This document shows, piece by piece, positions 10,801-23,966 of a DNA stretch of 37,443 nucleotides (the first letter of the stretch is position 1; each line of letters opens with the position of its first letter). This stretch comes from a bacterium BMS3Abin03. Its GTDB lineage: Bacteria; Bacteroidota; Ignavibacteria; Ignavibacteriales; Ignavibacteriaceae. A program made the translations under genes and the position numbers. The notes beneath the pieces are model-generated. The model saw only the letters and a program-made list of their open reading frames with translations. It made no database searches and was not told the DNA's origin. The DNA lies in contig BDSV01000207.1 in the NCBI GenBank assembly GCA_002898075.1, forward strand, positions 1 to 37,443, read 5' to 3'.

Positions 10801-11226
10801 TTCATATATATTCTTAAATGCGGCGTCGATTAAACCGGAAGAATAAATTTTCTTATTGCGTGATCCGGATAACAACTGCATCGCATTCAGCAGGTCATCC
10901 TTTAATTGCGGAAAATGTTTCCCCACCTTTTCAGCCGTCTGGAAATAAGATTCATTACGTAACAATCCGAAATATCTTAGAACAGGTATAAATAAAAAGT
11001 AAACAATCGTAACTACAATTAAGGCGACCGATAAATAAAACAGAACTGTTCGTACGGTTGAATTCAGATTAGCAGCCAATTCTATTAAAGAAAAAAGTAT
11101 GAATACAGATAACACAATTATAACAGAAAACTGCAAACCTATTACAGCAAGCCGGATGGATTCTTTTTTACAAAGCTTCTCTAACTTTTCTAATATTCTT
11201 TTGTAATATTTTGATTCGGTTCCCAT
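7837..11226 (-). CDS. DUF4175 family membrane protein with long coiled coil
   Basis: I place the start at the ATG at 11226 (MGTESKYYKRILEK, 1129 aa), 32 codons inside the track ORF. The extra N-terminus overlaps the upstream gene, and the TAATG junction is a classic coupled start. Three N-terminal membrane segments (about residues 27-50, 58-86, 158-180) precede beta-rich Ig-like regions (about 190-545). A very long Glu/Lys/Gln-rich coiled coil follows, with Met/Gln/Gly-rich low complexity around 'MMQGGGQGGGMMSMMQQ'. This is the DUF4175 architecture, found in Bacteroidota-type genomes near BatA/DUF4159 genes. Biochemical function is unknown; the layout suggests a large envelope-anchored scaffold. 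It forms an operon with the DUF4159 gene. Confidence 0.88.
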   Translation of the reverse strand: MGTESKYYKRILEKLEKLCKKESIRLAVIGLQFSVIIVLSVFILFSLIELAANLNSTVRTVLFYLSVALIVVTIVYFLFIPVLRYFGLLRNESYFQTAEKVGKHFPQLKDDLLNAMQLLSGSRNKKIYSSGLIDAAFKNIYERAQNISFESIVNFKKAKSFLIYVAAIIFLTAGLFSFVPGLRGASYRLINYDKEFIEPPKFSFNVSPGNVEITKGDDVLITVTVDGDMPAELFVGIKREDQAEYVLKKVSEDSSGHFNLVLSSVRSSFNYFATADDIQSDEFVVKVVDRPIVKTLDVEITPPAYSGLNKIFQKDNGNVTSLVGTKVLIDLSSTKMLSDAYLEFDDSTKTSLDLSGNKAAGKFVIKKDNNYKIRLVDKSNNINLSPITYQVHALLDNYPSIEMIAPNMNIPLANDNRVNLIAKILDDYGFSKLILHYRLSASRYESPQKKFRQIEIAIDKKTKENDVNYIWNLSQLNPAVDDAISYYLEVFDNDNINGPKSAKTSVFTVRVPSLEEILAGADQVHKETETELEQTLKEAEELEKTLKDIDQEMKKDQKKLSWEEKEKLENALEKFKQLQEKVDDAGEKLQEMQNKLQENNLLSEETLEKYMELQKLMDQMTSGEMKKAMEQLRNVLQQLNREMTQQALQNLKFDEEMFKKSIERTLNLLKKIQIEQKVDELIKRTEELTSEQNDLKEQTENSDLSGKEKQNELSRKQNEISKKLDDLSEEMKSLDEKMDEVEDTPQEELEKMMKDFEKQKNQEKSEQASKDIRQNQKQNAMQQQQQLSNNMSRLNQQLQEMKNSMMMKNQMQTFTDMMKILDNMLTLSKKQEDLKNETKNSDPNSSSFKQNAEKQLNLQQDLSNIMGRMSELSQKTFAITPEMGKELGDANKSMQRSIQSMQNRNGGFAAITQGEAMMHLNKAASMMKGMMEAMMQGGGQGGGMMSMMQQLQQMAQQQMNLNNLTQMLQQMQQGKLSPQQQAQLQRLTQQQNLIRKSLEQLNEEAKVSGESKKLPANLDNVLKEMQEVITNMQTDKLDDKLVQKQERILSKLLDAQRSINERDFEKERKSQTGENYVRKSPGEINLSEEGDKKKIIDELKRAMGEGYTKDYEELIIKYYEALQKENTPE

Positions 11227-11885
11227 TACTGCGTCAACGCCCAAACTACTATGTTTGTCCCAAACTTTAATGCCTCTTCCCTTTTTTCCGGCGGATCGTT
11301 GTGCACTCTTGCATCTGCCCAACCGTCGCTCGGGTTCGATTCGTAAGTGTAATAAACTGCGAGCCGGTTGTTTACAAAAATTCCAAAACCCTGTGCCGGT
11401 TTTCCATTATGCTTATGCGTTTTCGGAGGACCGTTTTCAAAACTGAAAACAACATTGTACAAACCATAATTAAACGGCAGCTCAACAAAATCTTTTTCGG
11501 GAAAGATTTTTTTCATCTCCCGTCGGGCTGCTTTATCCAAACCGTAATCATCATCGATATAAAGGAAGCCGCCGTTTTCAAGATAGAGCCGTAACCTTTT
11601 TGCCTCTTCGTTAGAAAACACAATATTTCCATGCCCTGTAAGAAAAAGAAAGGGATAACCAAAAATCTCATCGGAATTAATATCTACAAACCGGTATTCA
11701 GAATCTACTTTTATGTTAGTGTTTTTATTTATAAAGTTTAACAGGTTAACCTCGGCTGACGGATCGTTATACCAATCGCCGCCGCCGTTATACTTTAATC
11801 GTGCAATTTTAAAACCCGTATCGACTTGCGGATACAAATTAACCGTAAGCAAAAGTACAAATATTATGTTAATAACTCTTTTCAT
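11226..11885 (-). CDS. DUF4159 domain-containing secreted protein
   Basis: 219 aa with a signal peptide (MKRVINIIFVLLLTVNLYPQ). The body matches DUF4159: FKIARLKYNGGGDWYNDP near the start, the strand FLFLTGHGNIVF, the acidic GGFLYIDDDYG motif, and the C-terminal AYYTYESNPSDGW-like region before FGTNIVVWALTQ. The fold is thought to resemble a glutamine-amidotransferase-like or ThuA-like domain without a known reaction. It is upstream of and 1 bp overlapped by DUF4175. These families commonly occur with BatA/VWA and MoxR genes; here the BatA gene lies about 9 kb away at 20603-22711. Function not established. Confidence 0.87.
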   Translation of the reverse strand: MKRVINIIFVLLLTVNLYPQVDTGFKIARLKYNGGGDWYNDPSAEVNLLNFINKNTNIKVDSEYRFVDINSDEIFGYPFLFLTGHGNIVFSNEEAKRLRLYLENGGFLYIDDDYGLDKAARREMKKIFPEKDFVELPFNYGLYNVVFSFENGPPKTHKHNGKPAQGFGIFVNNRLAVYYTYESNPSDGWADARVHNDPPEKREEALKFGTNIVVWALTQ

Positions 11886-11996: not shown

Positions 11997-12467
11997 GTGT
12001 CAAAGAAATACTGGCTTTTCAAAACAGAACCGAATGCTTTTTCAATTGATGATCTGGCAAAGAGTCCTGGTAAGAGAACATACTGGGATGGTGTAAGAAA
12101 TTACCAGGCGCGTAACTTCATCCGCGATGATATGCGAAAAGGAGACTACGTTTTGTTTTATCACAGCAATACTAACTCGCTTGCAGTAGTCGGTTATTGC
12201 GAAATTGTTAAAGAAGCATATCCCGATCACACTCAGTTTGATCCAGATAACAAACATTTTGATCCATCGGCAACACAAAAAGAACCGCGCTGGTTTATGG
12301 TTGATATTAAGCTAATAAAGAAATTTAAAAAGCCCGTTACGTTGAAAGAGATAAAAGCAAATCCAAAGCTTAAAAATATGCGGCTAATTCAGAGAGGCAA
12401 CAGATTATCGGTTATGCCGATTACCAAAGAAGAGTTTGATGAGATTTTGAAGATGGGAATGCAATAA
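11997..12467 (+). CDS. EVE domain-containing protein
   Basis: A 156-aa single-domain EVE protein (PUA-like fold). Typical motifs are KYWLFKTEP at the N-terminus, YWDGVRNYQARNFIRDDM, GDYVLFYHSN, the VVGYCEIV strand and the C-terminal RLSVMPIT. EVE domains are known as readers of modified bases and occur both as housekeeping proteins and in restriction or defence contexts. The start is GTG at 11997; the ATG at 11975 is out of frame. The next gene (DUF3800) follows closely on the same strand. A decayed second copy of this gene's 3' third lies at 13440-13606, on the other side of DUF3800, which suggests recombination at this locus. Confidence 0.92.
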   Translation: MSKKYWLFKTEPNAFSIDDLAKSPGKRTYWDGVRNYQARNFIRDDMRKGDYVLFYHSNTNSLAVVGYCEIVKEAYPDHTQFDPDNKHFDPSATQKEPRWFMVDIKLIKKFKKPVTLKEIKANPKLKNMRLIQRGNRLSVMPITKEEFDEILKMGMQ

Positions 12468-12545
12468 ATTTTATCCGGGATATTGACAAACAAAAAGGGG
12501 AAATCTCAAGTTAGAATTTTTAAAAGTAAAATTGTGGATATATTA

Positions 12546-13361
12546 ATGAGTAAACAGAAACCGATTGAATTTTATCATAGGTTTTTAGATGAAGCTGGAG
12601 ATACTACCTTCTTTGGCAAAGGTAAAATCCCAACTGTTGGAAAAGTAGATGGTGTAAGTCTTAGTTTCATTTTAGGTATGGTAAAATTTAAGAAGCCTTT
12701 ACAGGAAATACGAAATAATATCATAACACTTCAGAAAGAAGTTGAAAACGATGAATATTTAAAAGAAATTCCAAGTATTCGAAAGAAAAAAGGTAAAGGA
12801 GGGTTTTTCTTTCATGCAAAAGATGATGTTGCAGAGGTTAGAGAGAAATTTTATAAATATATTAAAACTATAGATTTTAGTTTTGAAGCTGTTGTTGGTA
12901 GAAAAATTTACCAGATATTCGCTAATAAGCATAATTCAAAAGAAGCTGAATTCTACGCTGATTTGCTCTCTCATTTAATAAAAAATAAATTTGAACTTGG
13001 TGGAAAACTTATTTTGAACATTTCTCAACGAGGGAAGTCGACAAAAAATCAAAATTTAATGAAAGCTATGGAAACTGCTCGTAAAAGATTCCAACTAGTA
13101 AGACCAGATAAGGATGCTGTAACAGATTTTGTTTTCAATATTCAATATCCAACAACAGAACCATTACTTACAATTCCGGATTATATTTGCTGGGCAGTAC
13201 AACGTGTTTTTGAAAGGGGAGAAACAAGATATTACAATTTTATAGAAGAAAAAATTTCACTTATTATTGATTTGTATGACAGTGAGAAATACAAAGGAAA
13301 TAAAAACTATTACAATCACAAGAATAAATTAACATCCAAAAACAAATTAAGCCCGCCTTAA
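12546..13361 (+). CDS. DUF3800 domain-containing protein
   Basis: The track ORF begins at a TTG (12483). I prefer the ATG at 12546 (MSKQKPIEFYHRFLDEAGD, 271 aa), which puts the family motif near the N-terminus. DUF3800 hallmarks are LDEAGD (residues 14-19), FFFHAKDDV with a following basic VREKF segment (about 87-102), and the late acidic motif PDYICWAVQRVFERG (211-225). The spaced acidic residues fit an RNase H-like nuclease fold, which is inference. DUF3800 genes are common in mobile and defence-rich regions. The gene is strongly A-rich and lies between an intact EVE gene and an EVE remnant, so it is probably part of an acquired cassette. The last codons form the left arm of the structured repeat at 13345-13423. 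Confidence 0.85.
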   Translation: MSKQKPIEFYHRFLDEAGDTTFFGKGKIPTVGKVDGVSLSFILGMVKFKKPLQEIRNNIITLQKEVENDEYLKEIPSIRKKKGKGGFFFHAKDDVAEVREKFYKYIKTIDFSFEAVVGRKIYQIFANKHNSKEAEFYADLLSHLIKNKFELGGKLILNISQRGKSTKNQNLMKAMETARKRFQLVRPDKDAVTDFVFNIQYPTTEPLLTIPDYICWAVQRVFERGETRYYNFIEEKISLIIDLYDSEKYKGNKNYYNHKNKLTSKNKLSPP

Positions 13362-13423
13362 AACTATTCCGATTACTCGGAAAACGACGTGAAGTCGACG
13401 TTCATAATAAGGTAGGCTTAATT
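13345..13423 (+). repeat. Structured inverted repeat (three-way junction), 79 bp
   Basis: Outer arms AATTAAGCCCGCCTTA (13345-13360) and TAAGGTAGGCTTAATT (13408-13423) pair over 16 bp with one mismatch and one G-T wobble. Inside are two hairpins: TTCCG-attact-CGGAA (13367-13382) and AACGaCG-tgaagt-CGaCGTT (13383-13402). The left arm overlaps the last codons of DUF3800. No T-run follows, so it is not a simple terminator. It may be a REP-like mobile repeat or an RNA structure. Confidence 0.7.
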
Positions 13424-13439
13424 CTCTATTGAACATAAT

Positions 13440-13606
13440 TATTTCTACTACTATTGTCAAGAAATTTAATAAGCCAATTACTTTAAACCAGATAAAAGAA
13501 AAATCCAAAGCTTAAAAATATGCGGTTAATTCAGAGGGGCAACAGGTTATCTGTTATGCCGATCACAAAGAAAGAATGGGATGAGATTTTGAAGATGGGG
13601 AAGTAA
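13440..13606 (+). pseudogene. Decayed 3' fragment of a second EVE gene
   Basis: Translation gives TIVKKFNKPITLNQIKEKSK, then a +1 frameshift (an extra A in the ATAAAAGAAAAATCC stretch), then LKNMRLIQRGNRLSVMPIT followed by KKEWDEILKMGK and a stop. This matches the last third of the intact EVE protein, with scattered nucleotide differences. It is a paralogous or displaced-allele remnant, not a tandem error-free duplicate. The 5' two thirds are absent. Confidence 0.85.
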
Positions 13607-13623: not shown

Positions 13624-13691
13624 TGTCATTCCGCACTTGATGCGGAATCTCCCTATTCACAAATGAGATTCCCGCTTTCGCTGGAATGACA
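13624..13691. repeat. GTCATTCC-type inverted repeat, 68 bp
   Basis: TGTCATTCCGCACTTGATGC...GGAATCTC pairs with GAGATTCCCGC...GGAATGACA: ends TGTCATTCC/GGAATGACA and inner GGAATCTC/GAGATTCC. This end sequence is a widespread small palindromic repeat in bacteria and recurs inside 23838-23966. It lies between convergent genes. Confidence 0.75.
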
Positions 13692-13705
13692 CATATGAAT
13701 GGTCT

Positions 13706-14515
13706 TTAAATTTTTTTCGCCTTAATCGAAAACATCATCGGGATAATATCTTCCATTCCTTTTATTCTCCAAAAACCATCTTCGCCTTTTACTGTGTTAG
13801 GAAAAACATTATAAACACTAAAAGGAAATTCGTGAAAAAATTCAATCTGCAAACCGTTTTCTATCAGGGAATTTATTACTTCGCTTAACGGATGATTCCA
13901 GCCATATTGTATTTGTTTAAGCAGAGCGTCCATATCGGCGTAAGTACCTTCTGCTTCTTCCTTAATTTCGCCAAGATTGAAATAAGAATATTTAAATTCC
14001 TTGAATTCATCATCAAACATCCAGAGCATGGTATGGAAATCAACGATATAAAATACTCCGCTATGTTTAAGGTAGCGGGAAATTAATCTTCCCCACTCTT
14101 TCAAATCGGGCAGCCAGCCGATTGTACCGTAAGAAGTGAACACAATATCAAATTGCTCGTTGAGATGCTGTTCAATATCATAAATATTTGCGCAGATAAA
14201 TTTTGCATCGAGGTTTAATTCATCATTTAAAGATTGCGCTGTTTTAATTGCTTCATCTGAGAAATCAATACCCGTTACCTTTGCGCCGAGTCTTGCCCAG
14301 GAAAGAGAATCCTGCCCGAAATGGCATTGCAGGTGCAGCATTGTTTTATCTTTCACGCTACCGACTTCATCGAGTTCAATAAACTTTAAAGAAGAATTAC
14401 CTTTTTTAAAACCTTCAATATCATAAAGAGATGATTTTAGATGGAACGGTGTTTTATTGTTCCACGCCTTTTTATTTGTTTCGAAAAATTTATTAAACTC
14501 TTTCTGTGTGCTCAT
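13706..14515 (-). CDS. Class I SAM-dependent methyltransferase
   Basis: 269 aa. Motif I is MLHLQCHFGQDSLSWARLGA (about residues 79-98), followed by the acidic end of strand 2 (VTGIDFSDEAI), CANIYD (motif III position) and the FDIVFTSYGTIGWLPDL motif IV region, then the ISRYLKHSGVFYIVDFH strand. The HFG variant of the glycine loop and the TSYGTIGWL motif are typical of an uncharacterised methyltransferase group seen in many bacteria. Substrate unknown. It is the last minus-strand gene before the EVE/DUF3800 locus and is separated from the upstream membrane-protein gene by a terminator hairpin, so it probably has its own promoter. Confidence 0.88.
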   Translation of the reverse strand: MSTQKEFNKFFETNKKAWNNKTPFHLKSSLYDIEGFKKGNSSLKFIELDEVGSVKDKTMLHLQCHFGQDSLSWARLGAKVTGIDFSDEAIKTAQSLNDELNLDAKFICANIYDIEQHLNEQFDIVFTSYGTIGWLPDLKEWGRLISRYLKHSGVFYIVDFHTMLWMFDDEFKEFKYSYFNLGEIKEEAEGTYADMDALLKQIQYGWNHPLSEVINSLIENGLQIEFFHEFPFSVYNVFPNTVKGEDGFWRIKGMEDIIPMMFSIKAKKI

Positions 14516-16550: not shown

Positions 16551-16874
16551 TCAAACCCCATAAAAAATACCTTCTGATTTTACGTTAACTCGAAATGGCG
16601 TGGATGGATTTTGGATCGATTGAAAAGTATAAACCTTAACATCAATTAATATGTCATTCTCAAGTTCGTAGTCATAAACGATACTTATAATATCATCTCT
16701 TAATTGTCTGCTTATTTTATTTCTATCAAACATAAAAACAATATCGTAATCCGAATCTTTTGTTGCATTTCCTCGCGCTTGCGAGCCATAAAAATACAGC
16801 CCTTTAAAATCTGGGTATTGCATTCTTAAATGATTTCTCAGCTCATTTATTATTTTATCAATTATTTTATTCAT
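16551..16874 (-). CDS. Minimal nucleotidyltransferase (MNT/Pol-beta superfamily)
   Basis: The track start (16886) is a TTG; the ATG at 16874 (MNKIIDKIINELRN, 107 aa) is more likely. The core motif GLYFYGSQARGNATKDSDYDIVFMF has the GS-x9-DxD active site of the family, plus a later acidic residue in ILIDVKVYTF. Such small proteins act as antitoxins with HEPN toxins or as stand-alone AMP-transferases. No HEPN gene flanks it: neighbours are the ammonia-lyase (47 bp upstream) and rmuC (29 bp downstream). It is therefore an orphan, or its partner lies elsewhere. Confidence 0.87.
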   Translation of the reverse strand: MNKIIDKIINELRNHLRMQYPDFKGLYFYGSQARGNATKDSDYDIVFMFDRNKISRQLRDDIISIVYDYELENDILIDVKVYTFQSIQNPSTPFRVNVKSEGIFYGV

Positions 16875-16921
16875 TGAACTTGTCAAGAGTTATTATTTAT
16901 TAAAATAAAGTACTAATTACA

Positions 16922-23837: not shown

Positions 23838-23966
23838 GAGCTGTCTAATAAGTTCAAATTTTTATGTCATTCCCTTGAAAAAGGGAATCCAAGACCTTTT
23901 TTATTAGTTAGATTCCCACTTTCGTGGGAATGACAAGACATTGAATATTACTTTTTAGACAGCCCC
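23838..23966. repeat. Nested MITE-like inverted repeat, 129 bp
   Basis: Outer arms AGCTGTCTAATAAGT and ACTTTTTAGACAGCC enclose an inner GTCATTCCC...GGGAATGACA palindrome (about 23865-23935) with further pairing of GGGAATC/GATTCCC. No ORF. It separates the convergent SnoaL-like and aconitase genes. Confidence 0.75.

Follow-up and report, generated by a model that had tools for sequence, protein, structure and literature searches.

A DUF3800 gene and its convergent structured RNA: a putative RNA-restrained nuclease module inserted at an EVE gene of an Ignavibacteria genome

The real partner of the DUF3800 gene in the genome of bacterium BMS3Abin03 is a structured RNA gene convergent with it, and not the EVE gene next to which both were found. 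We analysed computationally the DUF3800 locus in a stretch of 37,443 nucleotides (the window) together with its relatives in other genomes. According to our main reading, to which we assign a probability of roughly 55%, the locus holds a mobile, defence-associated DUF3800 nuclease that is restrained by the convergent RNA in the manner of a type III antitoxin. The inserted unit comprises the gene of a predicted RNase H-fold nuclease and a convergent, independently folded small RNA. On this reading it is a module of the defence type that spreads horizontally, stays at low copy number and often resides in restriction-modification (R-M) operons. With a defined RNA, a defined strand and ends and a nuclease-fold partner, all in about 0.9 kb, it offers a compact and testable case.

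The locus consists of four pieces, each of which was already recognised in a preliminary description of the window and is confirmed here. An intact, resident EVE gene (11997-12467, plus strand, 156 aa; Pfam EVE, E 6e-60) is followed on the same strand, after a gap of 78 bp, by the DUF3800 gene (12546-13361, plus strand, 271 aa). The third piece, originally termed a structured repeat, is indeed strongly folded but is not a repeat: it is a conserved gene for an RNA read from the other strand (13345-13423, minus strand), and the 3' end of this RNA overlaps the DUF3800 stop codon. The fourth piece is a frameshifted remnant, apparently the displaced EVE 3' end (13459-13606, plus strand). Outside the cassette lie a DUF4159 gene (11226-11885, minus strand; Pfam DUF4159, 4.7e-64), which also precedes EVE in the relatives, and a SAM methyltransferase gene (13706-14515, minus strand; Pfam Methyltransf_31/11/25), which synteny likewise identifies as a flanking gene and not as part of the module. 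A dispersed intergenic repeat of the GTCATTCC...GGAATGACA type occurs at 13625-13695, directly after the EVE remnant, and at 23911-23935, and a similar element is found 3' of EVE in the same-genus genome G004. Further downstream, a small minus-strand ORF (16551-16886) resembles a nucleotidyltransferase (GSQARGNATKDSDYDI) and is possibly half of an MNT-HEPN pair.

All five same-genus genomes (G001-G005) contain a single EVE orthologue in the same place, and no DUF3800 hit spans the EVE orthologue in any of the five. In G001, G003 and G004, the methyltransferase of the window directly follows the lone EVE gene. This is the empty site that the preliminary description had predicted, and it places the insertion between EVE and the methyltransferase; the G002 piece examined contains only a short part of the methyltransferase, and the G005 piece contains none of it. 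The remnant matches the final third of the intact gene (84% over 159 bp, E 7e-45), carries one extra base, which causes the frameshift, and has retained the EVE stop codon. The two EVE 3' ends in the window are 85% identical and belong to different allele types, the remnant ending in KKEWDEILKMGK as in G002 and G004 and the intact gene in KEEFDEILKM, similar to G003. Different allele types fit the arrival of a foreign EVE 3' end on the inserted DNA, and the 3' third of the intact gene is probably the incoming allele, in a comparison that spans about 150 bp, too short to place the crossover, and has modest branch supports. A recent in-place duplication of EVE is less likely given the 15% divergence and the different allele types, on the same short alignment and the same modest supports. 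In this genome, the cassette would thus have recombined into the resident EVE gene, together with a 3' piece of another EVE allele, and have left the old EVE 3' end downstream; the empty site and the allele types support the insertion at EVE and the displaced 3' end that were proposed earlier.

The preliminary description had also regarded EVE as the partner of DUF3800 within the cassette and the two as a modified-DNA-sensing defence pair. Both genes are adjacent on one strand in the window, yet tblastn searches with three EVE protein queries revealed no EVE near DUF3800 in about 100 other fetched loci, which refutes a recurring linkage: among these loci, there is no other genome in which DUF3800 travels with EVE. 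Because each of the five same-genus genomes also has a resident EVE and lacks DUF3800, a sensing pair is very improbable, and the cassette brought along at most a 3' piece of an EVE allele in its flank. The earlier interpretation is accordingly partly supported, its history being partly right and its partner and function being wrong.

The association of DUF3800 with the RNA, by comparison, is recurrent. The homologue set, comprising the best 80 of 364 candidates in GTDB contigs, forms one clear family and is distributed over at least eight phyla (Bacteroidota, Ignavibacteria/Chlorobi, Chloroflexi, Spirochaetes/Leptospiraceae, Verrucomicrobia, Hydrogenedentota, Neomarinimicrobiota and Acidobacteria-type bins). 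All 80 of these best-matching loci have the RNA, always at the 3' end of the gene and on the opposite strand; 69 of them, whose RNAs were picked by position behind the DUF3800 gene, were used to build the covariance model and match it by construction, while the remaining loci, the genomes of the phylum and the divergent loci L028, L031 and L032 lie outside model training. Across 396 genomes of the phylum, DUF3800 is present in 21, the RNA in 24 and both in 17 (Fisher p 7e-21). No tblastn match was obtained in plasmid and phage collections, and none of seven remote viral relatives is accompanied by the RNA. The source genome has a single copy of the cassette, and most other genomes also have one, unlike a transposon or insertion sequence, for which multiple copies and defined ends would be expected. 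A second RNA copy lies close to the first in three loci (L049:6979-7065, L073:1052-1138 and L102:6092-6179), possibly reflecting repeated insertion or partial duplication.

The RNA was found without an intact DUF3800 gene in about 17 places, which do not amount to 17 independent events as some contigs are short, one genus is over-sampled and some flanks are shared; an intact DUF3800 gene of the window's clade without the RNA was not seen. Chlorobium-like genomes, for instance, have kept RNAs with high scores in places where the DUF3800 gene is truncated or missing. Such persistence of the RNA, with the converse unseen, is what one would expect if the RNA were an antitoxin. The RNA could also have been retained for another function, and part of the solitary RNAs have a changed P3 loop, which counts against the antitoxin reading. 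Solitary RNAs whose P3 loop is changed and whose flanks are shared (L144, L145, L146, L147 and L153) are located in toxin-antitoxin-rich regions, with PemK and Abi_2 genes upstream in L146; the relation of PemK and the other toxin genes to these RNAs is one of proximity.

The RNA is 80-90 nt long across loci, lies on the minus strand relative to DUF3800 and is built of a closing helix P1 (13345-13358 pairing with 13411-13423), a helix P2 and the hairpins P3 (13385-13397) and P4 (13367-13382). The window element folds far more stably than its shuffles (z = -4.87), and the covariance model R1 matches it at 13334-13423 on the minus strand (66.7 bits, E 9e-14). In an alignment of 90 related RNAs, which was fitted to the model structure and leans towards it, 22 of the 23 pairs show changes on both sides, double-change cells number 415 versus 110 in shuffles, and 93.5% of the cells are paired, whereas shuffles reach 71.7% and slid structures 34-48%. 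An unfitted alignment with an independent RNAalifold fold gave double changes in 18 of 19 pairs. Conservation extends to the unpaired positions of the core (GAA, UNCAN and UUAG).

An initial reading of the RNA on the plus strand was ruled out by the wobble cells, of which the minus-strand reading gives 242 as G-U and 24 as A-C. Upstream of the RNA, a TAnnTTTG box of the Bacteroidota type occurs in 27 of 81 loci (1.4 expected) and sigma70-like sites in 25 (10.9 expected). In the window, the promoter-like site forms the right edge of the cassette (13432-13460, minus strand) with a -35 element TTGACA (13460-13455), a spacer of 17 nt and a -10 element TATGTT (13437-13432), and displays CTTGACAAT, which is also found in L041, L043, L044 and L108. 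On the other side, P1 is followed by a U-rich, terminator-like tract (13334-13346, minus strand; UUUGUUUUUGG after GGGCUUAA), and over 69 loci such 12-nt tracts contain 8.9 U on average. The promoter-like motifs and the U-tract are, at the level of sequence, signs of an independent RNA transcript.

Rfam 15 contains no family matching the RNA of the window or its relatives, and permissive thresholds likewise yielded no match (E up to 10 for L058 and L071, E up to 3 for 11 loci), weak hits such as STnc150 falling far below gathering scores. The DUF3800-I motif (RF02969), intended as positive control, is absent from both the phylum genomes and the controls and is therefore uninformative. The RNA family thus appears to be new. 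Genes of a second DUF3800 branch (L048:5998-6813, L095:3436-4239 and L027:1474-2277) are followed by another convergent structured RNA, distinct from that of the window, which also has no Rfam match. Its P1 is formed around GAGCAAT..ATTGCTC with compensatory changes between L048 and L095, and in L095 a TATATTTG box precedes it. These examples, three in number, suggest that each DUF3800 branch has its own cognate RNA.

The DUF3800 protein of the window matches the PADLOC profile DUF3800_VII (E 2.3e-17) and has no significant match in Pfam, which marks it as a divergent branch. Its AlphaFold2 model, computed with 58 homologues, reached a pLDDT of 93.8, and the best PDB matches were RNase HII (1eke, E 1.2e-4, probability 1.0) and RNase HIII (4py5, E 5.2e-3); matches at E < 0.01 were confined to RNases HII and HIII, the Foldseek similarity being remote (TM 0.40-0.46). 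D15 and E16 of the DEAG motif are invariant among the homologues, and D15-E16-x-G resembles the DEXG motif of RNase HII. The comparison with RNase H-like nucleases, which the preliminary description had put forward as a check, thus predicts with high confidence an RNase HII-like fold with a conserved acidic motif. The RNase H fold is also shared by RNA-guided enzymes and by enzymes of housekeeping. For another DUF3800 protein, an RNase H fold with catalytic rearrangement has been described (PMC10910872).

In about 27 of 80 loci, as assigned by hand, an R-M gene adjoins the cassette. Eight of nine spot-checked assignments were confirmed by Pfam, the exception being the upstream gene of L056. 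The Pfam tallies for 115 immediate neighbours, in which one protein may count under several families, include N6_Mtase (9), ResIII (6), Eco57I (6), Methylase_S (5), HsdM_N (5), Type_ISP_C (4) and N6_N4_Mtase (4). The window cassette and many others have no R-M gene as neighbour. In L066, L073, L088 and L110, the cassette adjoins separate Type ISP pieces, and in some of these it lies between the N-terminal methylase and the C-terminal specificity parts, as if the enzyme gene had been split. Direct repeats flank the cassette in eight of 69 loci versus two of 216 control places on the same contigs. Besides EVE, the duplicated gene ends include an OEP 3' end (L107), an hsdM 5' end (L047) and an hsdR 5' end (L053), with 77-85% identity; other flanking repeats are ordinary (e.g. 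L095 and L101). The gene-end duplications may have arisen if one end of the cassette recombined with a related allele while the other was joined illegitimately.

We propose that the DUF3800 protein is bound by the RNA, which would keep the nuclease in check as in a toxin-antitoxin system whose antitoxin is an RNA, and that the nuclease would be released once the RNA is lost, either when a phage takes over the cell or when the locus itself is lost. The decay asymmetry points to an RNA antitoxin, and the home in R-M operons suggests when the module acts. Tentatively, the pair may be a widespread, hitherto uncatalogued module in which an RNA-restrained RNase H-fold nuclease, preferentially placed in R-M operons, forms a second line of defence and triggers suicide if restriction fails. 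Next in rank after the RNA-restrained nuclease, and clearly less probable, is an RNA that acts as obligatory activating cofactor or scaffold of DUF3800, the ribonucleoprotein cutting foreign nucleic acid. The strict DUF3800-RNA linkage would suit such an effector, as would the RNase H fold, which guided nucleases share, and some systems link DUF3800 to Cas12a2 (PMC10910872). Against it, RNAs persist without the nuclease, and this RNA has no hypervariable unpaired stretch that might serve as guide, its unpaired core positions being conserved.

Two further explanations were weighed. In 65 of 69 loci, the DUF3800 gene stops between -12 and +27 nt from the outer P1 end, so that the two transcripts would overlap, and the RNA might control DUF3800 in cis as a type I-like antisense RNA that pairs with the 3' end of its mRNA, or by transcriptional collision. 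The overlap with the reading frame, however, is limited to the closing helix and the tail, the strongest covariation is found in P2-P4 beyond the stop codon, and RNAs remain where DUF3800 is gone, all of which renders antisense control improbable. Slightly more improbable still is a small mobile element in which the RNase H-fold protein is a recombinase, the RNA helps integration and the gene-end duplications are its footprint. The patchy spread over phyla and the duplications at unrelated sites would agree with it; one copy per genome is the rule, however, neither shared terminal inverted repeats nor a fixed target-site duplication was noticed, most loci have no duplication, and the 15-23% divergence between duplicated ends rather resembles the outcome of homologous recombination between related alleles.

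Several known systems come close to the locus. EVE-HNH enzymes are modification-dependent restriction enzymes (PMC7897488) that likewise place an EVE domain beside a nuclease-like protein, but EVE and DUF3800 of the window are neither fused nor recurrently linked. A link of DUF3800 to non-coding RNAs is already known (PMC10910872), and the Rfam motifs DUF3800-I and DUF3800-IX have been named (PMC11701678). These motifs (RF02969, RF02968 and siblings) are similarly structured RNAs linked to a DUF3800 gene, but none matches the RNA of the window, which is convergent and has its own promoter-like site and a terminator-like tail; DUF3800-linked RNAs are thus a known kind, within which the family at the window locus appears to be new. 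DUF3800-linked RNAs have been listed since 2017, and we know of no function reported for them in the literature. AbiF and its RNA RCd22 (abiF motif RF03085) provide a precedent for an RNA-restrained DUF3800, as a structured non-coding RNA beside a toxic, RNA-binding phage-defence protein neutralises that protein directly (PMC12373285). AbiF, however, is an Abi_2 protein with a co-transcribed upstream RNA, whereas DUF3800 has a predicted RNase H fold and a downstream, convergent RNA. Type III toxin-antitoxin systems (ToxIN, CptIN and TenpIN) share the possible RNA antitoxin for a nuclease and differ in that their antitoxins consist of tandem repeats that precede the toxin gene and are co-transcribed with it, the DUF3800 RNA being single, downstream and on the opposite strand, and the DUF3800 protein fold being RNase H-like. 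PrrC, a HEPN anticodon nuclease encoded within type I R-M operons, resembles the module in that its gene lies inside or beside hsd genes; PrrC has no partner RNA gene, whereas DUF3800 does.
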